Shown: positions 4,093 to 18,464 of the stretch, one piece after another | How positions within the stretch are numbered: position 1 is the stretch's first letter | How the letters are laid out: each line of letters opens with the position of its first letter | Source: Candidatus Auribacterota bacterium | GTDB taxonomy: Bacteria; Auribacterota; Tritonobacteria; UBA1439 | Assembly (NCBI GenBank): GCA_026392015.1 | Contig: JAPLCW010000141.1 | Span: 1 to 32,888, forward strand | Length of the DNA: 32,888 nt | Direction of reading: 5' to 3' | Made by a program: the position numbers and the translations under genes | Notes under the pieces: generated by a model | What the model was told of the DNA's origin: nothing | The model's database searches: none | The model's input: only the letters and a program-made list of their open reading frames with translations

Positions 4093-5121
4093 CTATTGCA
4101 GGTCCTTCATCAGTTTCTGGATCCGGGCGACCGTTTTGATATAGCGATCCGATCTCGTGTTCCTGACAAGGGCGTTCTGATAAGCCTTGTACGCCAGATC
4201 AAACATTCCCCTTCGCTCAAACCCCACGCCCATATCGTAATATGCAGCGGGGTCGTCCGGCTTTGCCTTAATCGCCTGCATCCATTTCTCCATGGCTTCA
4301 TCCCAGAGGTTGTTCTTTGCGAGCTCCACACCGAGGCGCGTCGAGTGAAAGATGCCATACTCGAGAATGCGCTCCTCCTCGACCGGATGCGCGGCGATCT
4401 TTCGGACAAATTTCTTTATCGCGCGGTCAAGGAGGAGGTCGAAGATCATGTCGCACGTCGGGAGCTCAGCGATCTCCGCCGATCCTGTCCCTTCCCAGCT
4501 CCCCGACTCTGATGCGGTGTCGGCGCAGATTACGTTTCCTAGAAAGGCATCTGCCATGCGCACGTGCAGATTAAGCACGGCATAGCGTTTGAGACGGTTC
4601 TTCTCGACCAACTGCTTTACAAAGCGTTTCCGTGGCATCGACTCTCCTGTGCTGCGTATATCCGACATGATATTCCCCTGCCCGTCTCTCACGTAGTCGC
4701 CCGTCCATACCGGCTCCCTGGCCTCCACAGCGCGGGACTCCTCGTCACACTGGGACTTCTCCAATTCCCCATAGAGAAGCGCGTCAACACCGAGGGCAGT
4801 TCCCATCCGCCTCACCATGGAGGCGTCAGGGGGATAGGAAAACTGGATTCCCGCTCGAGCGAGAAGACTCTTCATCTGATCATCTTTCATCACCCGGTAG
4901 CGCCCCGTATTCGCCACCACCTCCGCGAGGTGCTGTGCGACGACCTGGCCCCGCGCGCTGCCCGTCACATCGTCGCCGAACGGGAGCACTGCAATCTCGC
5001 TGATGCCGCTCACATCGGCGTCCGGGGGATCGAGCTTCTCGATCATCACGCGCGCGGTGGGCGCGCAGCCCGAGAGCGCAATGCACGCGACGACGACGGA
5101 AGACATGCTACGTGTCCTCAT
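4093..5121 (-). CDS. CsgG-like lipoprotein with C-terminal TPR repeats
   Basis: An exported lipoprotein of about 342 aa. The signal peptide (MRTRSMSSVVVACIALSGC) ends in a lipobox LSGC, predicting lipidation in the periplasm. The mature N-terminus has a CsgG/TolB-type strand (ISEIAVLPFGDDV), a helix with HLAEVVANTGRYRV and a following GVDALLYGELEK strand, typical of periplasmic CsgG/FlgO-like domains. The last 80 residues carry TPR-like helices (ELAKNNLWDEAMEKWMQAIK, PDDPAAYYDMGVGFERRGM), suggesting protein-protein contacts. It overlaps the upstream bifunctional-nuclease gene by 14 nt at ATG 5121, so the two are probably co-translated. Frame-compatible alternatives are a TTG at 5154 and ATG 5106. 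Function is unknown; an outer-membrane assembly role is inferred. Confidence 0.8.
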   Translation of the reverse strand: MRTRSMSSVVVACIALSGCAPTARVMIEKLDPPDADVSGISEIAVLPFGDDVTGSARGQVVAQHLAEVVANTGRYRVMKDDQMKSLLARAGIQFSYPPDASMVRRMGTALGVDALLYGELEKSQCDEESRAVEAREPVWTGDYVRDGQGNIMSDIRSTGESMPRKRFVKQLVEKNRLKRYAVLNLHVRMADAFLGNVICADTASESGSWEGTGSAEIAELPTCDMIFDLLLDRAIKKFVRKIAAHPVEEERILEYGIFHSTRLGVELAKNNLWDEAMEKWMQAIKAKPDDPAAYYDMGVGFERRGMFDLAYKAYQNALVRNTRSDRYIKTVARIQKLMKDLQ

Positions 5122-5560
5122 GGCCCTCCCCGTGTCCTTCTTCTCCCGCATCAAGCATGTTGCTCACGTCCTCAACCTGGTTCAATACATGTTGGTCTAT
5201 ATAGATTGGCGCGCCGTTCTGTTTCGCGAGCACCAGACAGTCGCTCGGACGGGCATCGAGTTCGACAACGCGCTTCCCCCGCTCGCTTTCCTCCCTCAGG
5301 AAAAGGCGCGCGTAAAATGTGACGCCCTTGAGGTCGTTGATCACCACCCGCTCCACACGCACCCCGAGACCGGCGAAGATGCTCGTGATGAGATCGTGCG
5401 TGAGTGGTCGGACCTTGCTCACTCCCTCGAGACTCATCGAGAGCGCCATGCCCACCCCGGGCCCCACATACAGGACGAAGGTCTTGTCACCGTTCCCCAG
5501 GAAGATGGCCCATGTCTCCGGCGTGGCAACAATCCTCTTGATATCCACCTTCACGAGCAC
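5108..5560 (-). CDS. Bifunctional nuclease family protein (DUF151)
   Basis: Cytoplasmic protein of about 150 aa with the BFN (DUF151) domain across nearly its whole length. Hallmarks are LYVGPGVGMALSMSLEGV, a RPLTHDLITSIFAGLGVRV helix, VVINDLKGVTFYARLFL and the signature DARPSDCLVLA. Members have reported DNase/RNase activity or regulatory roles in plants and bacteria; the role here is unknown. The frame extends to a TTG at 5584, but GTG 5560 is preferred because GGGAG sits 8 nt upstream and family proteins begin at this point. The C-terminal tail (EEGHGEGHEDT) is acidic/histidine-rich. Its 3' end overlaps the start of the CsgG/TPR lipoprotein gene, forming a two-gene operon. Confidence 0.88.
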   Translation of the reverse strand: MLVKVDIKRIVATPETWAIFLGNGDKTFVLYVGPGVGMALSMSLEGVSKVRPLTHDLITSIFAGLGVRVERVVINDLKGVTFYARLFLREESERGKRVVELDARPSDCLVLAKQNGAPIYIDQHVLNQVEDVSNMLDAGEEGHGEGHEDT

Positions 5561-8703: not shown

Positions 8704-8741
8704 GTAGCCGGCCCTTAAGGGCCGGCAAGCCTGTGGATAAC
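8704..8741 (+). repeat. REP element 1 (upstream of RAYT)
   Basis: GTA followed by the perfect palindrome GCCGGCCCTTAAGGGCCGGC (8707-8726), then the tail CTGTGGATAAC (8731-8741). Architecture matches REP 2 at 9317 and the copy at 24594: a GTAG-type head, CTTAAG centre and TGTGGATAAC tail. T-rich DNA follows, so it may also terminate the radical SAM transcript. Confidence 0.8.
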
Positions 8742-8840
8742 TTTTTTATCTTTTTTCGGGAATAAAACTCCTCCTCGACTCGTCTACTTAAGTGGGCACT
8801 CTAACTATTTCATTTAGATTATCCAAGGGAGGGGGTATCC

Positions 8841-9320
8841 ATGAATGGATTAAGACACTACGATTCGCCGGGAAGCATTTATTTCATTACTACGGTAACA
8901 AAGAGACACCAGACGCTCTTTTACAGCGCACAGGCATGCAGATTTCTTCCGGTCTGTCTGGAATATCATAAATATATCTTCCAATATAACCTATATGGTT
9001 TTGTCATTATGCCGGAACACCTGCACTTTATAATTCAGCCGAGCGGAAGCTTCAAAATCTCAAAGATCATGAACCATATAAAAGGCAACTTTGCCCGAAA
9101 GTACAATGTATTAAGGGGAGTAAATGAATCTATCTGGCAGGAAGGTTATTTCGATGAGGGGATACGAAGTACGCGGCAATTTATTAACGAATTAAATTAT
9201 ATGCACTATAACCCTGTTCGCAGAGGCTTAGTGGCTCTTCCGGAAGACTATACTTATTCCAGTTATCGGTATTATCATGGCAATGAGTACACAAATTTAA
9301 TTGATCGGATAATTCTGTAG
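8841..9320 (+). CDS. REP-associated tyrosine transposase (RAYT, Y1_Tnp)
   Basis: A 159-aa member of the IS200/IS605-like Y1 single-strand transposase superfamily, RAYT branch, which is thought to process REP hairpins. Motifs seen are an N-terminal beta strand GSIYFITTVTKR, the metal-binding His-x-His in MPEHLHFII (H60, H62), IWQEGYFDEGIR (98-109), and the conserved NYMHYNPVRRGLV (119-131), where the catalytic tyrosine is expected to be Y120 or Y123. Length is typical. The start has a strong Shine-Dalgarno (GGGAGGGGG). It is flanked in direct orientation by two REP elements; the downstream one overlaps its stop codon. The gene looks intact. Confidence 0.93.
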   Translation: MNGLRHYDSPGSIYFITTVTKRHQTLFYSAQACRFLPVCLEYHKYIFQYNLYGFVIMPEHLHFIIQPSGSFKISKIMNHIKGNFARKYNVLRGVNESIWQEGYFDEGIRSTRQFINELNYMHYNPVRRGLVALPEDYTYSSYRYYHGNEYTNLIDRIIL

Positions 9321-9355
9321 AGGGGGCCTTAAGGCCCCCCTACGTTGTGGATAAC
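9317..9355 (+). repeat. REP element 2 (downstream of RAYT)
   Basis: GTAG, one bulged A, then GGGGGCCTTAAGGCCCCC closed by CTAC (9317-9343), followed by GTTGTGGATAAC. The head overlaps the RAYT stop codon. The tail ends one base before the stop codon of the convergent CsgG-family gene, so the REP fills the entire convergent gap and could stop both transcripts. Confidence 0.85.
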
Positions 9356-10771
9356 TTATTCGACCTTGACCAGGTCGCCGGCTTGGAATCCGGAGCCCAT
9401 GAGCGACGTTGCGTAGGCGATCTTTTCTTTCACCTTGGTCACGCTGATCCGGCCGATCTTCTTCGTTTCCACGTCGAGGAGTTCACCCGTCGTGGGGTCG
9501 CGCAGTTCGCCCCCCTGCCGGTACACGTTGAACTCATAGCCGGGCTGCATGCCGTCCTCCGAACCTCCGCGGATGATGATGCTGCCCTCATCGGCCTTCA
9601 CGACAGTCGACTTCCACGGCTGCTTGGCAAGCTCCTGGATGATGAAATACACCGTGTTATCGATGCAGACCTGCATCGCCTTGTTGACGGGCGTGTGCTT
9701 TTGCTTCCCACTTTGTATCTGCCCCCCCGACACGTACGGGAGCGCGAGCCCGCCGCCGGCCCCATGGCCCTCGGCCTTCCCCTCCATGCGCTGGGACGCA
9801 ATTACCGTCCCGGAGGTGGTGTCGATCAGGTCAATGACCACCGCCATATGGGCCCTCGACTTCCCGCCCGAAATGCCCACCCCGTACATGCTGAATCCCT
9901 TGCTGTCTGAGGCTTCCGCCTCATCGTACTCAGTCACCGTTCCCCGGACAAGGTACTGGGCGGTGATGGCCTTCCCGATCTGGGCCGTCTTGCTCTCCGC
10001 CATGCGGCCGCTCTGCGCGAGGTCCTGCTCGCCGAAAACATCCTTCAAGAGCTCCTGCTCACGAACAATAAACTTTCCGCTTCTGCTCAAGGCGTTGATG
10101 AGCTGCGCCTGCATCCCCTCACCGAGATTGACCTGCGAGGCGGCATTCGCTTTATTGTCAAATTTTGCGACCGCGACTATCTTCTTCAAACTGAGAGGAC
10201 CGGTCGTCGAGGATTCCGCGGGAGCCGCGCCGCCGGCTGCCGGAGCTCCGGCAGGCGCCCCTCCGGCCCCCGGGGCGGGAGCCATGTCAACCTTGCCGGT
10301 GGTTGCGGCGTGGACCGCTTCCGGAGACGCGCCCATCTGTTCCGCGCCGGGGCCGCCGGGCGTTTCTCCCTTGCGGTTCACCGTCTTCTGATCACCCTGG
10401 AGCAGTGACTTGCTCTCCATGATCGGGATCCGCACGGACTTGCTCGTCTTGCCGCCGCTGGAATCCGTGAATCTCAATTTAACCTTGTCGCCCTGTGTGC
10501 CGTCCACCGTGATAGAAAAACTCCCGTCGGGATTCACCGTTGCCTCTGACTTCTCCGCCGTGTCCTTATCGAGTGAGACAACCTTAATCGGGTGCACACC
10601 CGTCACCGTGCCCGGCGGCGCGTTAATCACATACTGCCCGGTGTTGCTCATGGGCGTGAATGTCAAGTCATCCCTGCTGGTCACCTTGACGCTGCCCGCA
10701 ACCGCCACGCCGCTCACAAGAACGAGCATCGCGGCTGCCGTGACACCTGTCACACTGCCTCTTACCTTCAT
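9356..10771 (-). CDS. Exported CsgG-family protein with FlgT-C-like domain
   Basis: A 471-aa secreted protein. A signal peptide (residues 1-26, cleavage near AVA-G) is followed by a beta-rich Ig-like region (48-115), an Ala/Pro/Gly linker (160-190), and a CsgG-like domain (about 195-385) with KKIVAVAKFDNKA, LINALSRSGKFIVREQELL and QYLVRGTVTEYDE. Residues 387-471 resemble the FlgT C-terminal domain (GSIIIRGGSEDGMQPGYEFN, GRISVTKVKEKIAYA, GFQAGDLVKV). There is no lipobox Cys, so it is periplasmic rather than lipidated. A strong Shine-Dalgarno (GGAGGAGG) supports ATG 10771. It closes the envelope-protein cluster; a role with the FlgT-like and LPP20 proteins is inferred. Confidence 0.85.
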   Translation of the reverse strand: MKVRGSVTGVTAAAMLVLVSGVAVAGSVKVTSRDDLTFTPMSNTGQYVINAPPGTVTGVHPIKVVSLDKDTAEKSEATVNPDGSFSITVDGTQGDKVKLRFTDSSGGKTSKSVRIPIMESKSLLQGDQKTVNRKGETPGGPGAEQMGASPEAVHAATTGKVDMAPAPGAGGAPAGAPAAGGAAPAESSTTGPLSLKKIVAVAKFDNKANAASQVNLGEGMQAQLINALSRSGKFIVREQELLKDVFGEQDLAQSGRMAESKTAQIGKAITAQYLVRGTVTEYDEAEASDSKGFSMYGVGISGGKSRAHMAVVIDLIDTTSGTVIASQRMEGKAEGHGAGGGLALPYVSGGQIQSGKQKHTPVNKAMQVCIDNTVYFIIQELAKQPWKSTVVKADEGSIIIRGGSEDGMQPGYEFNVYRQGGELRDPTTGELLDVETKKIGRISVTKVKEKIAYATSLMGSGFQAGDLVKVE

Positions 10772-10827
10772 CTGATCCTCCTCCGTTACTTATTTTTGCT
10801 GAGACTATTCACAGCCATTTATCATTA

Positions 10828-10856
10828 AAAATAGCATAAAAAACTACTCGGTGCAA
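10828..10856 (-). promoter_or_regulatory. Putative promoter of the CsgG/FlgT-C gene
   Basis: On the minus strand TTGCAC (10856-10851) and TATTTT (10833-10828) have a 17-nt spacer. The leader would be about 50 nt and contain the Shine-Dalgarno. The -10 match is only moderate. Confidence 0.45.
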
Positions 10857-10969
10857 ATTTTTGTCCGCTCTCCCCGTAATGCGTCAGAAGGTGTGAATAG
10901 ATTAGTTTTACGCATTGCTGTAGGGGTCGGATCCTTCGGCAGGCTCAGGACAAGTTTCATCCGACCCCC

Positions 10970-11161
10970 CCTAACCTGATCTATTCACCAACTCAAAACT
11001 GATATACCTGCCCAATAGCACAACAGACTACAACGATTTTAACCACTGAAGACGCGGAGATCACTGAACGGTTCACACAACTATTTCATTGATATCTTAA
11101 TCGCTATTCAGGACGCAGATGAACGCAGAACACGCAGATACAAAATCAGCTTGCGGCTAAA
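10970..11161 (+). repeat. 192-bp dispersed repeat, copy 1
   Basis: The copy at 23922-24113 differs by one base only (A to G in CAATAGCACAAC). It begins CCTAACCTGATCTATTCACC, similar to the MITE-3 terminus, and contains direct words such as GACGCGGAGATC and AGGACGCAGATGAACGCAG. It is non-coding. A preceding 50-bp palindrome (10919-10968, GGTCGGAT ... ATCCGACC) abuts it. Confidence 0.85.
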
Positions 11162-11227
11162 CAGTCGCGGGAGGGTGAGGAGTGATTTCCCAATGGGTAA
11201 CGGGAGCCTTCGCTCTCCCCCGCGCCA

Positions 11228-12454
11228 TTATTTTCCCTCCGGAATCTCCTGCATTCCTCCCGCCTGGGCCGGCGCTGCCTTGTCCTTCAATTTGCAGTCG
11301 ATCCTGTTCTGCGTCTTCGCGGTAAGCTCGACTCCCACACCGGGAAGGCCCTCGATCCGTTTGTCAAAATCGCTCCAGATTGCGCCATCGACATCCAGAT
11401 CGAGCTCAAGCACCTCGTTCGTCCAGCTCCGCTCGGACACGTTCCGCACGCCACGGATCGCTGCGAGGTCCTTCTCGAACGCGCGCCTGCGGTCGTTATT
11501 TGCGTTGGTTGCGATGATCTGTATCGTCGAAGTGTTGAACGCCTCGCTCCGCCACTTCTCCAGAATCTGATCGCGCATCGCCTGGGCGAGCTTCTCGCCG
11601 GCGATTTTCAGCGCTTCCTTGGCGGCGGTTGCGCGACCGCCCTTCACGACGCGTCCCGAGGTGACGCTCTCGCGCGCGATGATCTGTGCGTTGTCGGTTT
11701 TTACCGCCTTCGCGGAGATCTGGGCGTCACAGTGGAACACCGCGACGCCGTGCGGGGAGCTCTGGTCCATCTGCGCGCTCGTCGCCTCGCCTACGATCAC
11801 CACCTCCGCTCCTGCGCGCTTGCCGAGCGCGGCCGCCTTATTCGCGTCGTTGTATGCCGTTTTCTCGTCCCGCTCGTTGATCTCGCCCATCTGCGCCTTG
11901 TCCACGAGGGGGAAGTCGAGACGCAAAAATTCTTTCTCGATTGCGCTCTGCGCTACCTCGCCGCCTTTGGCGAAATCCGCTCCGTACTCGGGGTCTTCAA
12001 AAAATTCTCTCATCACCACCATGATGCGCGGGTTGTTCTTCTTGGCCTTGATGATGTTGAGCGCCTTGACGTCCTTTTCAAGCTGGGCGAGCGCGACCGT
12101 GGCCTCGATCGTAACGCTGTAGACGCCGCCCTCGCCGTTGTTATCCTTGATGATCTTGAAACCGGTGACGTATCCCTTGACCTGGGAGAGGACCTTGTCC
12201 TCAAGCAGCTGGAAATTTTCCACCATCGTTTCGGAATCCACGATTGTCCCGACACCCTGCTCGATCGCCCTCCTCTGCGCCCGATTGATCGCTTCGTCCT
12301 TGGCGAGCAGCAGCGCCTCGGGCCCCGTCCCCTTCACCGCAGCGTCCCCCGTGGCCACAACCACTTTCTCGGGAATCGCGAGCGTGTTCCAGGGCAAGGC
12401 AGCCCCCAGCGCCAGCCCGACAATCCAGGCACCGCACACAGACATTCTTACCAT
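11228..12454 (-). CDS. FlgT-like exported protein
   Basis: A 408-aa secreted protein. The signal peptide spans about residues 1-27 (hydrophobic GAWIVGLALGAALPWNTLA). Residues 45-125 carry the FlgT N-terminal/LPP20-like pattern: AKDEAINRAQRRAIEQGVG, TMVENFQLLEDKVLSQVKGY, then a GGVYSVTIEATVALAQLEKD strand. The middle (about 140-300) resembles a TolB/FlgT middle fold (RIMVVMREFFEDPE, KRAGAEVVIVGEAT). The C-terminal part (310-390) holds a beta-alpha module (IQIIATNANN, RGVRNVSERSWTNEVLELDL). FlgT supports the flagellar H-ring in Vibrio, but no flagellar genes are present here. ATG 12454 is preceded by AGGTGATC. It is 299 bp from the small-lipoprotein operon and separated by a MITE, so probably has its own promoter. 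Confidence 0.82.
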   Translation of the reverse strand: MVRMSVCGAWIVGLALGAALPWNTLAIPEKVVVATGDAAVKGTGPEALLLAKDEAINRAQRRAIEQGVGTIVDSETMVENFQLLEDKVLSQVKGYVTGFKIIKDNNGEGGVYSVTIEATVALAQLEKDVKALNIIKAKKNNPRIMVVMREFFEDPEYGADFAKGGEVAQSAIEKEFLRLDFPLVDKAQMGEINERDEKTAYNDANKAAALGKRAGAEVVIVGEATSAQMDQSSPHGVAVFHCDAQISAKAVKTDNAQIIARESVTSGRVVKGGRATAAKEALKIAGEKLAQAMRDQILEKWRSEAFNTSTIQIIATNANNDRRRAFEKDLAAIRGVRNVSERSWTNEVLELDLDVDGAIWSDFDKRIEGLPGVGVELTAKTQNRIDCKLKDKAAPAQAGGMQEIPEGK

Positions 12455-12543
12455 ATGATCACCTCACCTCCATCGGCCAGATCATTCAAGAGAGGCACCC
12501 GCGCCCCATCAAGAAAGGCGGCCTAATTGATACACAATGCCCA

Positions 12544-12740
12544 CCTGATCTATTCACCAGCTTTTAATGTTTTAACCGCGGATTACGCTGGTTACGCAGA
12601 TTCGCATTGTGTAATCCGCACAATCCCTGCCTATGCCGAAGCGGAGCTCCGGCTCCGCGCAGGCAGGCGCGCAATCTGCGGTTACATATGTTAGGCTGTT
12701 AAAATTGCTCTTTATCCGTCTGCTGAAAAATCCAGGCTAA
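12544..12740. repeat. MITE-3 copy 1 with nested hairpin
   Basis: Related to the elements at 16443 and 24270: a CTGATCTATTCACCAGC-type left end, TTTTAACCGCGGATTACGCT core, and AAAATCCAGGCT right end. It is longer because an extra palindrome (CCTGCCTATGCC ... GCGCAGGCAGG, about 12627-12668) interrupts the core. It separates the small-lipoprotein operon from the FlgT-like gene. Confidence 0.7.
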
Positions 12741-12753
12741 AAATATCGCCGAA

Positions 12754-13119
12754 TCACTGGACGACTGTCGTTTCCTCCGTTGTCGACCCATGCTGCACCG
12801 GGACGCCCGGAGCGGGCATCATAGGCGGAACGGGACCGCCCGGCTGAACCACCACGCCGTGCACGCCGACATCCCCGCCCGATTCTACATGGAGCGGAGC
12901 CACGCGCGACTGTCCGCCGATTCCGCGGGCGCCCTTGATCTTCACACTGCCGTCATCCTTGTACTTGACCTTCATTATGTCATCGGGCGATTTCATTTTC
13001 ACGATCTCGCCGTTCGGGCCGTACATTACGTCCGTGCTCTTCAGCGTCGGTATCTTGCATCCGGCGGCGAGCAGGCCCGCCAGGCAGATGCACCCCATCA
13101 CCAGCAACACGTGTCTCAT
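12754..13119 (-). CDS. Small lipoprotein, 121 aa
   Basis: A lipoprotein of unknown function. The signal peptide MRHVLLVMGCICLAGLLAAG ends in lipobox LAAGC (Cys21). The mature part starts with KIPTLKSTDVMYGPNGEIVK, followed by DIMKVKYKDDGSVKIKGARG, then a Pro/Gly/Val-rich low-complexity tail ending GVPVQHGSTTEETTVVQ. The DGSVKIK stretch resembles the NGSKIKM stretch of the 60-aa lipoprotein just upstream, and the GVPVQ...ETTVV tail resembles that of the 49-aa lipoprotein. Strong Shine-Dalgarno (GAGGGGGG). It is the last gene of the five-gene minus-strand run, 19 bp after the 60-aa gene. Confidence 0.82.
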   Translation of the reverse strand: MRHVLLVMGCICLAGLLAAGCKIPTLKSTDVMYGPNGEIVKMKSPDDIMKVKYKDDGSVKIKGARGIGGQSRVAPLHVESGGDVGVHGVVVQPGGPVPPMMPAPGVPVQHGSTTEETTVVQ

Positions 13120-13138
13120 ATTTCCCCCCTCCTCACTA

Positions 13139-13321
13139 CTATTTGACTTCCACCCTCTCCGCCGGCTTCATCTTGATCTTGCTGCCGTTGTCCTTCGACT
13201 GCATCTCCACCCAGCCCTGGTCCGTGGGAACCAGGTATGCTTCTTTCTTGAACATGCCACAGCCGGAAAGGAACGCAGTGGCCACGACCGCACCCACGCC
13301 CAGCACTACTGCCCTGCTCAT
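13139..13321 (-). CDS. Small lipoprotein, 60 aa
   Basis: The signal peptide MSRAVVLGVGAVVATAFLSG is followed by a lipobox Cys (LSGC). The mature 40 residues (GMFKKEAYLVPTDQGWVEMQ, then SKDNGSKIKMKPAERVEVK) are hydrophilic and beta-prone. ATG 13321 is chosen over a GTG two codons upstream because the G-rich Shine-Dalgarno (GAGGGGGGG) then has proper spacing. It is 44 bp after the 49-aa lipoprotein gene and 19 bp before the 121-aa one, in one apparent operon. No family recognised. Confidence 0.8.
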   Translation of the reverse strand: MSRAVVLGVGAVVATAFLSGCGMFKKEAYLVPTDQGWVEMQSKDNGSKIKMKPAERVEVK

Positions 13322-13365
13322 GTGCACCCCCCCTCTCTAAGATTTCATTCATGGGAACAGACGCG

Positions 13366-13515
13366 TTACTCCACGACTGTTTCCGATTGAACGGGAACTC
13401 CCTGGTCGATAATCTCCTCGCTCACTCTCGGAACGTATCTTTTCTTGCAGCCGGCGATCAACGCGACGCCGAGGATCATCCCGATGACCGCGCACCACAT
13501 CACCATCCTTCTCAT
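13366..13515 (-). CDS. Very small lipoprotein, 49 aa
   Basis: ATG 13515 follows a strong Shine-Dalgarno (GAGGAGG), and the ORF ends with TAA at 13366. The first 22 residues (MRRMVMWCAVIGMILGVALI, then AG) form a lipoprotein signal with lipobox IAGC (Cys23). The mature peptide is only 27 residues (CKKRYVPRVSEEIIDQGVPV, then QSETVVE), comparable with Lpp-size or smaller lipoproteins. It is easily missed by length filters, but position, RBS and lipobox support it. It lies 34 bp downstream of the triple-LPP20 gene. The C-terminal GVPVQ-(x)n-ETVV motif recurs in the 121-aa lipoprotein. Function unknown. Confidence 0.78.
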   Translation of the reverse strand: MRRMVMWCAVIGMILGVALIAGCKKRYVPRVSEEIIDQGVPVQSETVVE

Positions 13516-13549
13516 GGTTCCAACCTCCTCTTTCATCTCCCCAAAACCC

Positions 13550-14875
13550 TCACTCTCCCTCTCCCTGCGCTACTGTCGAGCCGCTCACAATCTGCCATAG
13601 CCCTTCGAGCGGGATTTCCAGCTCCACCTCGATCGAGCCATCCGGCATCACTCTGGGCTCGCCCACGATGTTCGCGCCCGCGAGGAACTGGTCAACCTGG
13701 GTCCTCACCTGGTCGTTGACCGTGATGTAATCGCGCACGGTCGTCGTCGCGTCTATGTGCACGCCGTACACCTTCTCAACAAGGTTCCTGCGCGCCACGG
13801 CTTCCGCAGCCCGCTCCGTATTGAGACGCGCGGCGGTGCCCGCCTCTCCCTCTCTCGGCACGCCGGTGCCCGTAGCTCTGGCCGACTGACCGGCCCAGGA
13901 CGGCAAGGCCGACTGCGCCTCGCCCGTCGATGCCGAGGAGGCGGCCGGCTTTCCCCGGAGATAGCCCTTGGGCGGTACGGCGCCGTTCCCGGTTGCCTTG
14001 ATCATTTTGGGAGGACCCCAGTCGATGATCTTCTCGAAGGTGACGTCGTGGAATACGCTCTGTGGCGGGAAGCCCGCGTAGTAGTGCGTACGCAGCGTGT
14101 TGAGCTGTTTGACCACATCCTGGATCGTCACCTCCACATCCACCTCGCTGATTCCGTCCGGGAGATACCGGTAGGGACCGTCTTCCTTGATCCCGTTGAT
14201 GAATGTGTTGAGGCTCGTTTGGATCTGGTCGTTCAGCACCACAAAATCCCTCACGTAGGTGTTCCCTGTGACCTTCAATCCCTTGACCGTCTCTGCAAGG
14301 TTGCGCCTCGCATCGGTGAGCGCAGCCCGCTCTGCGAGGAGGCGGCCCTGGGGCGTCACGTTCTCCCATCCGGGTATGCCGGCGGTCTTCATATCGGTCC
14401 CCTTGGGCGCCATGGACTCAGGCTTCTGGCTGGGAGGCAGACCCACGCCGGTTGCGGTGTACACGGTCTTCTTCGTGTATTGCCCCATCTGGTCGAAGCT
14501 CATCCGCGTCCGCTTCGGGTCCGGGTAATCCAGATTGATCCTCTTCAGGCATTGCATGACCTGCTGGAGGGTGACCTTCACGTCCACCTCGCATGTCCCG
14601 TCCGGCATGTAGCGCGGCTGCCCGTCGACCTTCAGCCCCTTGATGAATTCACTGAACGAGCTGTTGATCTGGTCGCTCTCCGCGATAAAATCCCGCACGT
14701 AGGTCGTGGAGTTGATCTGCAAGCCCTTTATCTCCTCGGTGAGTTTACGATATGCGTCGACCTGCGCTGCCCTCTTCGCCATCAGCTTATCCTGCCCCGG
14801 CGAGAGCGGCTGAGCCGTACAGAGGCCCGCAAGCCCCGCCACACACATCATCATAAACAGCATCTTTATTTTCAT
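13550..14875 (-). CDS. Exported protein with three LPP20-like repeats
   Basis: A 441-aa secreted protein. Signal peptide MKIKMLFMMMCVAGLAGLCT is cleaved near TAQ; no lipobox Cys. Three homologous modules follow at about residues 30-108, 177-258 and 348-426. Each has an Ala-rich helix (AKRAAQVDAYRKLTEEIKGL in the first), T-x-VRD(F/Y), a DQ(I/V) segment, and a PDG(x)3EV-type strand. This is the LPP20/FlgP pattern, normally present once per protein. Linkers are Pro/Gly/Ser-rich. ATG 14875 is used because GGAGGAAGG precedes it and the signal peptide starts there, although the frame opens 14 codons earlier. LPP20 proteins form outer-membrane rings or lattices (FlgP); multimeric surface or periplasmic assembly is inferred. 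Confidence 0.85.
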   Translation of the reverse strand: MKIKMLFMMMCVAGLAGLCTAQPLSPGQDKLMAKRAAQVDAYRKLTEEIKGLQINSTTYVRDFIAESDQINSSFSEFIKGLKVDGQPRYMPDGTCEVDVKVTLQQVMQCLKRINLDYPDPKRTRMSFDQMGQYTKKTVYTATGVGLPPSQKPESMAPKGTDMKTAGIPGWENVTPQGRLLAERAALTDARRNLAETVKGLKVTGNTYVRDFVVLNDQIQTSLNTFINGIKEDGPYRYLPDGISEVDVEVTIQDVVKQLNTLRTHYYAGFPPQSVFHDVTFEKIIDWGPPKMIKATGNGAVPPKGYLRGKPAASSASTGEAQSALPSWAGQSARATGTGVPREGEAGTAARLNTERAAEAVARRNLVEKVYGVHIDATTTVRDYITVNDQVRTQVDQFLAGANIVGEPRVMPDGSIEVELEIPLEGLWQIVSGSTVAQGEGE

Positions 14876-14917
14876 AGGGATCCTTCCTCCTCTTATATCA
14901 ATGTTCACATCCCGCAC

Positions 14918-15529
14918 TCATGGCTGTGATACATTATGTTGCCCCAGTAGTTCGCGCCACTCAGTTTCGCTGATCTTCGCACCTCCTTTCTCAACGGAAA
15001 TCAGCCCTGTATTGTGTTCTTCTCGCTCTTCTTCGGGAGCTGCAGAAAACATTTCCCACCTCCGGCAGAATGTGCCCGGAAGTTCTATATCCACCTCCAC
15101 ATCGCCGTTTTGATAATAGCGTGTTTCCACAAGCCGTGCACCTTTAAGAAAACCCTCAGCCCGTTCGTTCCCCGTTCCCCCTGCGGGCTGCGAGGTCACG
15201 CCCCCCACATGCTTCACCATATTCTTATACGCCTCGAGCATCGCAGCCCGCTTCGCCATGAGCTTCTGCTTCGCCTTCGATCCGGGTGAGGCGGGAGGGC
15301 GTCCCCTCCCTGTGGCGGTCAGCGGTTCGCTCGGCGGCGACCCCGACCCGGACGACGGTGATGGAACGGGGGGGGGAGGGCCAGCCCACATCATGCCGGG
15401 GTATATACAGAGGGCAGATGCGCACAGAATGCAAATAACAATAATATGGCCAAAGCCCGTATGCACGTAAGAATGCGGCCTCGCACAATAGGAGAATATA
15501 CCATAAACAACCCTGAATTTCCTCTTCAA
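14918..15529 (-). CDS. Exported single-LPP20-domain protein
   Basis: About 203 aa from a TTG at 15529. A basic N-region (KRKFR) and a hydrophobic segment (HIIVICILCASALCI) precede AWA-type residues (GMMWAG), giving a signal peptide or anchor. A Pro/Ser/Gly-rich stretch follows, then one LPP20-like module (KQKLMAKRAAMLEAYKNMVK, FLKGARLVETRYYQNGDVEV). The C-terminus is acidic and unrelated. The start is uncertain: the frame is open to 15583 through repeat-like DNA, and no convincing Shine-Dalgarno was found; TTG 15529 (G-rich run upstream) and GTG 15466 are alternatives. It ends 42 bp before the triple-repeat gene, so it is probably first in the operon. Confidence 0.7.
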   Translation of the reverse strand: MKRKFRVVYGIFSYCARPHSYVHTGFGHIIVICILCASALCIYPGMMWAGPPPPVPSPSSGSGSPPSEPLTATGRGRPPASPGSKAKQKLMAKRAAMLEAYKNMVKHVGGVTSQPAGGTGNERAEGFLKGARLVETRYYQNGDVEVDIELPGTFCRRWEMFSAAPEEEREEHNTGLISVEKGGAKISETEWRELLGQHNVSQP

Positions 15530-15670
15530 AAAGAACACCCCCCATTTAGTAGTTAGGGTCTGGTAGCTAGAGGTTAGGGACAATGTTCCCTTAACTACTA
15601 ACTTTTAGCTCTTGGATTAGATCATCCCAAGAATGTCTCCGCACGATCCGCTATTCATCCTCCCCTCTCT

Positions 15671-15901
15671 TCACCTCAATCTGGCAGCCCCCCCGCCGGA
15701 GCCGACCAATTCCCGATAGCGCAGCAGTGCTTTCTCCGCCCATTCTTTGAACAGGAGCCTGGATTTTTCGATGCTGATGTTGTAGTGGAGGAGCATTTCT
15801 AGTGTCACTCCGTACAGATTCAGCACGCCTGCCTCCAATAGACTATCCAACTCGCTGAATATTTCATTTTTGCACGCATCGCCCTCGCTGTTTATCTTCA
15901 T
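15671..15901 (-). CDS. Hypothetical protein, 76 aa
   Basis: ATG 15901 has a strong Shine-Dalgarno (GGAGG, 6 nt spacing). The product is soluble and predicted helical (EIFSELDSLLEAGVLNLYGV, EMLLHYNISIEKSRLLFKEW, LLRYREL) with a Gly/Ala/Arg tail. No signal peptide or recognised domain. It lies upstream of the envelope cluster in the same direction, with about 140 bp between. It could be a cytoplasmic helper or regulator of that cluster, but nothing in the sequence shows this. Confidence 0.55.
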   Translation of the reverse strand: MKINSEGDACKNEIFSELDSLLEAGVLNLYGVTLEMLLHYNISIEKSRLLFKEWAEKALLRYRELVGSGGGAARLR

Positions 15902-16267
15902 CCCGGGCCTCCATTCTTCTCGCTATCCCTTCGGGCGCATCGTTCGTCTCTTGCTCTGTAAAGATGGCGCCAATTTATTCTTATAGCAAGAACAGTGCCA
16001 AACTTCTGAAAATTATCCCGTCGCAATCAATATTTTATTCTTTTGCGTGCCAATATATTACAACGCGAATGCGGGCGTGCATAATTAGATCCATCATCCG
16101 CGCCTGAATCACGTGCTCCGAATCGGCGGACTTTTGCAGGGACATGCTCCATTCCGGCGCATTATGCGCGCTGCCCAAAATTGCGGATAACCTAGGTGGG
16201 CGGATCCTTAGTACACATAGTCATAACTACGGTGACATAATAGAGGACATACAAAATAATCTATCCT
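15902..16267. other. AT-rich intergenic region
   Basis: No gene is supported. It should contain the promoter of the 76-aa gene, not resolved. Together with the repeats that follow, this leaves more than 1 kb without coding sequence before the sigma-54 activator. Confidence 0.4.
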
Positions 16268-16442: not shown

Positions 16443-16600
16443 TAGCCTGGATTATTCACCAACTATTAATGTTTTAACCGCGGATTACGCTGATTACGCG
16501 GATTTGCATTGTGTAATCCGCCTAATCCGCAGAATCCGCGGTTGCTTACTTTGATCCATTTAAATTGCTCTTTTATGCTTCTAATGAATAATCCAGGGTA
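16443..16600. repeat. MITE-3 copy 2
   Basis: Terminal inverted repeats AGCCTGGATTATTCACC and TGAATAATCCAGGGT, with a core AACCGCGGATTACGCTGATT that is itself palindromic with AATCCGCGGTT. The inverted copy at 24270-24425 is closely similar. Non-coding. Confidence 0.78.
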
Positions 16601-16955: not shown

Positions 16956-18464
16956 ATGACACTCAAGAAGGAGGATACAGGCCTCAGCCTCCTTAGCAGG
17001 GAGCAGCTTGTGGAGCTTCTCCAAGCCGATTTCCTGCTCAACTCCACACTCGCATCGGACAAGGTGCTCGAATCACTCATGGAGCTCGTCAACAGGCTTC
17101 TCGATGCGGAGGCGAGCTCCCTTATCCTCATCGACGAGAGGGGAGAGCGTCTTTTCTTCAGGGCAGCCGCCGGAGAGAAGGCCGACCAGCTCTCGCGCTT
17201 CACCCTCGACGCGGGCAAGGGTATCGTAGGGTGGGTGATCGGGAATGCAAAACCCTACCTCACGGACGATGTCAGTTCCGATCCCCTCTGGTCGCAGGAT
17301 ATTTCCACGCGCATCGGTTTCCCCACTCGCTCGCTCCTATGCGTCCCGCTCCTCAGCCGCGGCACGCTCATCGGGGCGATCGAGGCAATTAACAAGAAAG
17401 GGGGGAAGGGATTCGGTGATTCAGACGTCGCCCTCCTCACCGCGCTCGCGCCCCACGCCGCGCTCGCGATCGAGAATGCCCGACTCCACACGGAATTGGA
17501 AAGGGACAACGAAAAGATTCTCGAGGAGATAAGGCTTGAGCACCATATCATCGGCAACTCGCCGCGGATAGCGCAGCTCCTCGATCTCATCCGCAAGGTC
17601 ACGCCCAGCGACTCCACCCTCCTTATACGCGGCGAGAGCGGGACCGGCAAGGAACTCATCGCGAGGACGATCCACTACAACTCCCCGCGCCGCGGCAAGC
17701 CGTTCACCTGCGTGAACTGCACGCTCTACAGCGAGACGCTCATTGAGAGCGAGCTCTTCGGGCATGAGCAGGGATCGTTCACCGGCGCCTCGAAGAGGCG
17801 GATCGGCCGCTTCGAGCAGGCCGACGGCGGGACCGTCTTTCTCGATGAGGTGGGGAGCGTCTCTCCGGACGCCCAGCTCAAGCTGTTGCGCGTGCTTGAG
17901 AATCGCGAGTTCGAGCGGCTGGGAGGCTCCGAGACGATCAGGGTCAACGTGCGCGTCATCGCCGCAACGAACGAAGACCTCGAGAGCGCCATCAGGAGCG
18001 GTCGCTTCCGCGAAGACCTTTACTACCGGCTCAAGGTGATCGAAATCAACGCCCCGGCGCTCCGCGAGCTCCGGGAGGACATCCCCGGGCTCGTCACGTA
18101 TTTTCTCCATGACCTGGTACAGAGGATGGGGCGGCAGGTGCGCGAGGTGAGTCCTGAGGCGATGTCCCTCCTCACCTCCTATCGATGGCCGGGCAACGTG
18201 CGCGAGCTCAAGAACACCATCGAACGGGCAGTCGTCCTCGGGAGCGGCAGCACTCTCCTTCCCGAGCACCTCCCTGTGGAGATCCGCGCAATGTCGCACG
18301 AGAAGCAGGGCGGCCCGGCGCTCAAGGATGCCGAGCGGGAGCACATCCTCCAGGTGCTCGAGGAGGCGAACTGGAATAAGAGCAAGGCAGCCTCAATGCT
18401 CGGCATTTCCCGCAACCGGCTGGACAGGAAGATCGTGGCCTACAAGATCACGCGAGCCTCGTAA
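16956..18464 (+). CDS. GAF-AAA+-Fis sigma-54-dependent transcriptional activator
   Basis: A 502-aa bacterial enhancer-binding protein (NifA/FhlA type) that remodels sigma-54 polymerase using ATP. Domains are a GAF sensor (about 35-180), a coiled linker (180-193), an AAA+ domain (about 198-425) and a C-terminal Fis-type helix-turn-helix (472-495, NWNKSKAASMLGISRNRLDR). Key motifs are Walker A GESGTGKE (226-233), sigma-54-contact loop GSFTGA (273-278, Ser instead of the usual Ala), Walker B GGTVFLDEVG (291-300) and FREDLYYRL (351-359). There is no receiver domain, so small-molecule or redox sensing by GAF is likely. It is an orphan gene. I found no clear -24/-12 promoter in the window, so targets are unknown. 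Confidence 0.95.
   Translation: MTLKKEDTGLSLLSREQLVELLQADFLLNSTLASDKVLESLMELVNRLLDAEASSLILIDERGERLFFRAAAGEKADQLSRFTLDAGKGIVGWVIGNAKPYLTDDVSSDPLWSQDISTRIGFPTRSLLCVPLLSRGTLIGAIEAINKKGGKGFGDSDVALLTALAPHAALAIENARLHTELERDNEKILEEIRLEHHIIGNSPRIAQLLDLIRKVTPSDSTLLIRGESGTGKELIARTIHYNSPRRGKPFTCVNCTLYSETLIESELFGHEQGSFTGASKRRIGRFEQADGGTVFLDEVGSVSPDAQLKLLRVLENREFERLGGSETIRVNVRVIAATNEDLESAIRSGRFREDLYYRLKVIEINAPALRELREDIPGLVTYFLHDLVQRMGRQVREVSPEAMSLLTSYRWPGNVRELKNTIERAVVLGSGSTLLPEHLPVEIRAMSHEKQGGPALKDAEREHILQVLEEANWNKSKAASMLGISRNRLDRKIVAYKITRAS

Follow-up and report, generated by a model that had tools for sequence, protein, structure and literature searches.

The window analysed here is a 32,888-nucleotide contig (JAPLCW010000141.1; C200 in our numbering) of a Candidatus Auribacterota bacterium, whose genome comprises 3.85 Mb in 216 contigs and is 94% complete. 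On its minus strand, at 9356-15583, lie seven adjacent genes, here called the module, which encode a single-LPP20 protein (L1), a triple-LPP20 protein (L3), three tiny lipoproteins, a FlgT-like protein and a CsgG protein with a FlgT_C-like end. An initial annotation of the window had listed seven adjacent genes for exported proteins at this place and all seven were confirmed. Apart from L1 and L3, which denote the LPP20 proteins of the module, L followed by a number is a locus, G a genome and f a family. The module and its upstream region contain the following features.

9356 to 10771, minus strand: CsgG-domain exported protein with an N-terminal Ig-like part and a C-terminal FlgT_C/TsaP-like domain (Pfam, fold and profile)
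11228 to 12454, minus strand: FlgT-like exported protein with an LPP20/FlgT_N-like domain, a CsgG/LpoB-like middle and a third, C-terminal domain (structure search)
12754 to 13119, minus strand: 121-residue lipoprotein ending in -TTVVQ (lipobox LAAGC, Shine-Dalgarno site; kept in four relatives)
13139 to 13327, minus strand: 62-residue lipoprotein (lipobox FLSGC; kept in four relatives of the family)
13366 to 13515, minus strand: 49-residue lipoprotein ending in -SETVVE (lipobox LIAGC, Shine-Dalgarno site; likeliest start ATG 13515)
13550 to 14875, minus strand: L3, exported, three LPP20 (FlgP-type) domains, no lipobox (PF02169 three times; likely start ATG 14875, open reading frame to 14917)
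14918 to 15583, minus strand: L1, exported, one divergent LPP20/FlgP-like domain (family profile, syntenic homologues; true start uncertain)
15671 to 15901, minus strand: 76-residue open reading frame (ORF), likely the first gene of the operon (GGAGG Shine-Dalgarno site 6 nucleotides before the ATG)
15985 to 16000, minus strand: predicted sigma-54 type -24/-12 promoter TGGCACTGTTCTTGCT upstream of the operon (score 14.7 of 15.4)
16956 to 18464, plus strand: divergent GAF-AAA-Fis sigma-54 activator (Sigma54_activat 3.3e-70, GAF, HTH_8)

The three LPP20 domains of L3 were found by Pfam, where PF02169 matched in three stretches (E 2.4e-17) with 63.6 bits against a curated cut-off of 25.9. The L3 family profile matched FlgP-type structures at 8.8e-15 to 4.1e-9, with Vibrio FlgP at 2.4e-11. 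When the N-terminus of L3 was read directly, no lipobox was seen. L1 alone had no Pfam match and did not reach the curated cut-off of PF02169, yet its family profile matched the solved FlgP-type chains 9hmf_C (2.1e-11) and Vibrio FlgP 8z5n_2 (3.5e-6). In a similarity comparison, the L1 gene resembled that of the triple protein.

For the FlgT-like protein, Pfam gave FlgT_N at E 0.14 only. Its AlphaFold model (mean pLDDT 75) had Vibrio FlgT as the two best matches in the PDB, 8z5n_0 at 8.5e-10 and 3w1e at 1.1e-8. When set against the three domains of FlgT, the protein again fitted FlgT best, though the TM-score was low and the fold of its C-terminal domain uncertain. The family has 17 members of 32-82% identity; their tree, which includes one misframed row (G005), was used solely for grouping by families. 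No convincing RNA structure emerged when the stretch ahead of the FlgT gene was folded as a consensus of two sequences.

The CsgG protein was recognised by Pfam (PF03783, E 1.8e-33). The best PDB fold for its AlphaFold model (mean pLDDT 71) was FlgT at 1.7e-14, and CsgG followed at 7e-9. The FlgT_C-like end claimed in the initial annotation matched FlgT_C at E 0.03 in the window and at 0.0013 in a homologue, and the C-terminal part of the family profile matched the TsaP chains 6ve2 (1.6e-11) and 3jc8 (3.5e-10). Pfam found no LysM match, and no lipobox was seen at the N-terminus on direct reading. A second CsgG/FlgT_C protein, 57% identical to that of the module, is encoded in the same genome near an aminoacyl-tRNA synthetase gene (L054, 8724-10016), where the rest of the module is missing. 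The genome also encodes a 1049-residue protein of unusual CsgG architecture, with NHL repeats, a partial CsgG domain and fibronectin III domains (L055, 8155-11304).

A lipobox is present in all three tiny lipoproteins. Because their genes have Shine-Dalgarno sites and more synonymous than non-synonymous changes between close orthologue pairs (pS 0.71 against pN 0.24 for the 49-residue lipoprotein), they are very probably real genes. Each readable gap between the L3 and FlgT genes in the phylum contains one to four lipoproteins of 41-121 residues, and most of these have VVE, VVQ or something closely similar at the C-terminus. The mature part of the tiny lipoprotein in L042, for example, is CTEKYVVTERTVVETREVVVE. 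The tail occurred in 20 of 53 lipoprotein-like ORFs of the loci, against 6 of 3042 other ORFs. All 20 tailed lipoproteins are encoded in the L3-FlgT gap or, in L072, directly upstream of the FlgT gene; tailed lipoproteins were also found by eye in L045 and L047. Lipopeptide genes of 41-45 codons, with about 20 mature residues and the fixed -VVE/-VVQ end, were located at L042 8896-9018, L043 2401-2523, L045 10166-10300 and L047 9003-9137, and were probably missed by annotation because of their length. The L072 contig is labelled Methylacidiphilum; its FlgT-like gene, 43% identical, is preceded by the gene of a 45-residue tail lipoprotein, and the contig is either a case of transfer or misbinned.

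The neighbourhood is conserved among relatives, as the initial annotation had asked of a true system. The gene order L1, L3, tiny lipoproteins, FlgT and CsgG (one or two copies) recurs in many genera and in six families (f1, f2, f4, f5, f7 and f14), and the module is common to the window genome, Candidatus Tritonobacter lacicola, Candidatus Auribacter fodinae and further Auribacterota. The profile search found L3 in 16 genomes of the phylum. When 384 genomes were searched, full-length triple-LPP20 matches were confined to Auribacterota and one outside genome (G216, which holds the L071 contig).

Upstream of the operon, strong sense-strand -24/-12 sites were present in 9 of 12 orthologous cases, where the background of those upstream sequences predicts 0.32; antisense sites were present in none. 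The divergent activator adjoins the module in nine loci and probably regulates the operon, and rpoN was found in the window genome. With predicted site, activator and rpoN all present, the module appears to be a sigma-54-regulated operon. Behind the promoter site (16000-15985) lies the 76-residue ORF, which has a homologue in G003 (58% over 60 residues). It was rejected as a common first gene, being found in the family of the window only. In other families a Tyr-rich exported protein comes first in the operon (L042 6544-6942, L043 4395-4796, L044 5113-5463 and L045 upstream of 12290); those of f4 also have, close to the C-terminus, a VVIVEE-type strand with WW after it.

The initial annotation had further noted a FlgO/FlgP/FlgT-type domain set with no flagellar genes nearby. 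This was upheld genome-wide: neither FlhA nor FlgH was found in the 94% complete genome. FlhA was present in 7 of the 44 Auribacterota genomes examined, and FlgH solely in members that also carry FlhA. L3 was not associated with FlhA, which occurred in 3 of 16 genomes with L3 and 4 of 28 without it (p 0.69). The FlgT-like protein was found in 19 genomes of the phylum, 6 of them with FlhA (p 0.03), and the flagellated families f8, f10 and f11 have kept FlgT and CsgG but not L3. L3 thus does not track flagella, whereas in flagellated members FlgT and CsgG may serve that organelle.

Outside the phylum, the genes of single-LPP20 relatives form a cassette with a FlgT-like gene and, in many cases, CsgG, in the order LPP20, TPR/SLH lipoprotein, FlgT-like, CsgG and FecR. 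The TPR/SLH protein stands between LPP20 and FlgT in L122, L125, L126, L132 and L052, and FecR follows CsgG in L122, L124 and L132. FlhA was missing from 13 of the 20 outside genomes with LPP20 relatives. The cassette shares with the module the core gene order and a lipoprotein between LPP20 and FlgT; it differs in having a TPR/SLH lipoprotein where the module has tiny tail lipoproteins, and one LPP20 domain where the module has three. Since a search of 43 Auribacterota genomes detected no SLH domain, the tiny lipoproteins occupy the slot of the SLH lipoprotein and may replace it functionally. The proposal that the set had been rebuilt from flagellar parts was not supported; related cassettes occur in many non-flagellated bacteria of other phyla. 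This cassette, the sigma-54 promoter with its divergent activator and the -VVE tail all go beyond the initial annotation.

From the computed homology, domains and folds, from synteny, promoter and tail, and from the flagellar markers that were not found, we infer how the module may assemble, be tethered and act. The reading that we prefer, with confidence evenly balanced, is that the operon, under sigma-54 control, encodes a periplasmic ring or lattice that is attached to the outer membrane and does not depend on a flagellum. The LPP20 proteins, L3 above all, would be FlgP-type subunits whose polymers make up a disk or ring. Like FlgT and FlgO in Vibrio, the FlgT-like and CsgG/FlgT_C proteins would add rings, either concentric or central. 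In the window genome, none of these larger proteins has a lipobox. The tiny lipoproteins would be anchored in the outer membrane by their N-terminal lipids, and their conserved, beta-strand-like C-terminal tail (-VVE/-VVQ) would dock and so tether the ring beneath the membrane. The structure would probably serve to make the envelope stiffer or to anchor it, or else to support a machine spanning the outer membrane. An outer-membrane ring or lattice had been proposed in the initial annotation and would, by analogy, follow naturally from the homologues. For its suggestion of secretion or surface attachment no support was obtained. The pore hairpins of CsgG were not confirmed, and no curlin repeats were found in the genome. 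A secretion role is possible, with no specific support.

The analogies are drawn from two flagellar structures. The Vibrio H-ring consists of FlgO, FlgP and FlgT (PMC7990780), and the module likewise has LPP20/FlgP-type and FlgT-type folds and a member of the CsgG superfamily. It differs in that the window genome yielded neither FlhA nor FlgH, in having three LPP20 domains in one protein and additional tiny lipoproteins, and in that L3 and the CsgG protein have no lipobox, whereas FlgP and FlgO are lipidated in Vibrio. The second is the basal disk of Campylobacterota, which FlgP forms; in Helicobacter pylori the lipoprotein FapH, encoded beside flgP, helps to keep the outer membrane tight (PMC11756786). 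Here too FlgP-type units are combined with a small lipoprotein encoded beside the LPP20 gene; however, FapH is part of a flagellar motor and the module has no flagellum.

Several points weigh against the periplasmic ring. The case is computational throughout, and the structure models are of single proteins. Since the structure matches of the FlgT-like protein have TM-scores of only 0.26-0.30, the domain packing may differ and the support covers domain content, not packing. The docking of the tail is proposed from sequence only, and the 62-residue lipoprotein of the window does not have the tail. L036 and L037 have the activator but no strong sigma-54 site. Finally, the FlgT-CsgG pair is mildly associated with flagella, as 6 of 7 flagellated genomes carry it (p 0.03).

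This association is also what would be expected if the module were left over, or had been kept, from the H-ring of a flagellated ancestor after loss of the motor. We consider such an origin very unlikely, because non-flagellated families strongly conserve the complete module, L3 and lipopeptides included (13 of the 16 genomes with L3 have no FlhA), and because the constraint on the tiny lipoproteins and the conserved promoters argue for a function. Moreover, no flagellar genes were found among the tested module neighbours in the flagellated relatives. A different picture arises from the CsgG domain, which PF03783 matches over its full length and which is shared with the curli channel. CsgG might then be an outer-membrane pore with the LPP20 and FlgT-like proteins as a periplasmic collar, exporting a surface polymer. 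The hairpin-1 segment aligns to CsgG with unchanged length in nearly all homologues, and the Tyr-rich exported protein at the operon start of some relatives would fit. However, hairpin 2 falls short of the length that it has in E. coli CsgG, and FlgT, which forms no pore, is the better fold match. A residue-alternation test of the hairpins was uninformative, as it gave z of only about 1 for E. coli CsgG itself. The window protein also differs from curli CsgG in its FlgT_C-like C-terminus and its missing lipobox. We regard this channel as unlikely, and a curli system was rejected since PF07012, the curlin repeat, had no match in the genome.

The C-terminal domain of the CsgG protein resembles TsaP, the secretin-associated ring protein of type IV pili, and the module could form a ring that braces a secretin of a type IV pilus or type II secretion system, like TsaP around PilQ. 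Secretins were found in 42 of 43 genomes, including that of the window. Since nearly all genomes have them, with or without the module, there is no correlation between the two and it was dropped as uninformative. The module protein has a CsgG domain in place of LysM and no pilus genes were identified beside the module, so that we hold a secretin brace to be as doubtful as the export channel. Last, the envelope LPP20 proteins could sense the state of the envelope and signal via a FecR-LPP20 fusion to a neighbouring CHASE2 adenylate/guanylate cyclase. The fusion and a DUF3307 gene, mostly with the cyclase, adjoin the module in L045-L048 and L060, and without the cyclase in L038; the triad lies at 3470-7602 in L045, and in L046-L048 the neighbours were identified through their resemblance to the genes of L045. 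FecR genes also follow CsgG in the cassettes of other phyla. In the family of the window, however, the FecR-LPP20 locus is unlinked to the module: with DUF3307 it lies at a separate locus, L074, in the window genome and, with the cyclase, at L075 in G003. We give a sensor little credence, about as little as the H-ring remnant.

Some other elements of the window were recorded. The initial annotation had placed a further CsgG/TPR lipoprotein at 4093. The TPRs and the lipobox of this protein (4093-5154) were found, but Pfam gave no CsgG match; it is beside the module in L036 only and hence outside the conserved set. Within 8710-9360, a Y1 (IS200-like) transposase gene (8841-9320) is flanked by a 37-nucleotide direct repeat (8710-8746 and 9324-9360; 76%), whose second copy runs into the end of the CsgG gene. 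The transposase looks settled rather than mobile, because it is syntenic in L035, L036 and L058. The module gaps at 12544-12713 and 16446-16573 contain an 83-nucleotide repeat in two copies, 88% identical, and a 46-nucleotide part. With its hairpin-like GCGGATTA/TAATCCGC pieces the repeat is REP-like and is possibly linked to the Y1 transposase.

The literature that we searched contained no paper joining LPP20 and CsgG, nor LPP20, CsgG and FlgT. The folds and families are known, but the flagellum-free combination, the tail lipopeptides and the cassette of other phyla appear to be undescribed there. Going beyond the periplasmic ring of the window, we tentatively suggest, as a possibility that we favour somewhat less, that an outer-membrane scaffold of FlgP/FlgT/CsgG-type ring proteins is widespread in flagellated and non-flagellated phyla. 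The H-ring could be a specialised offshoot of it, and the Auribacterota version could be tethered by lipopeptides of about 20 residues whose C-terminal strand plugs into the ring. FlgP, FlgT and FlgO-type proteins are known as parts of the flagellar motor. If such a set is conserved and separately regulated where there is no flagellum, these rings would exist in their own right, which bears on the origin of the flagellar accessory rings. The set would also offer a new and small kind of membrane tether that is directly testable, made of a lipid and about 20 residues with a fixed tail.

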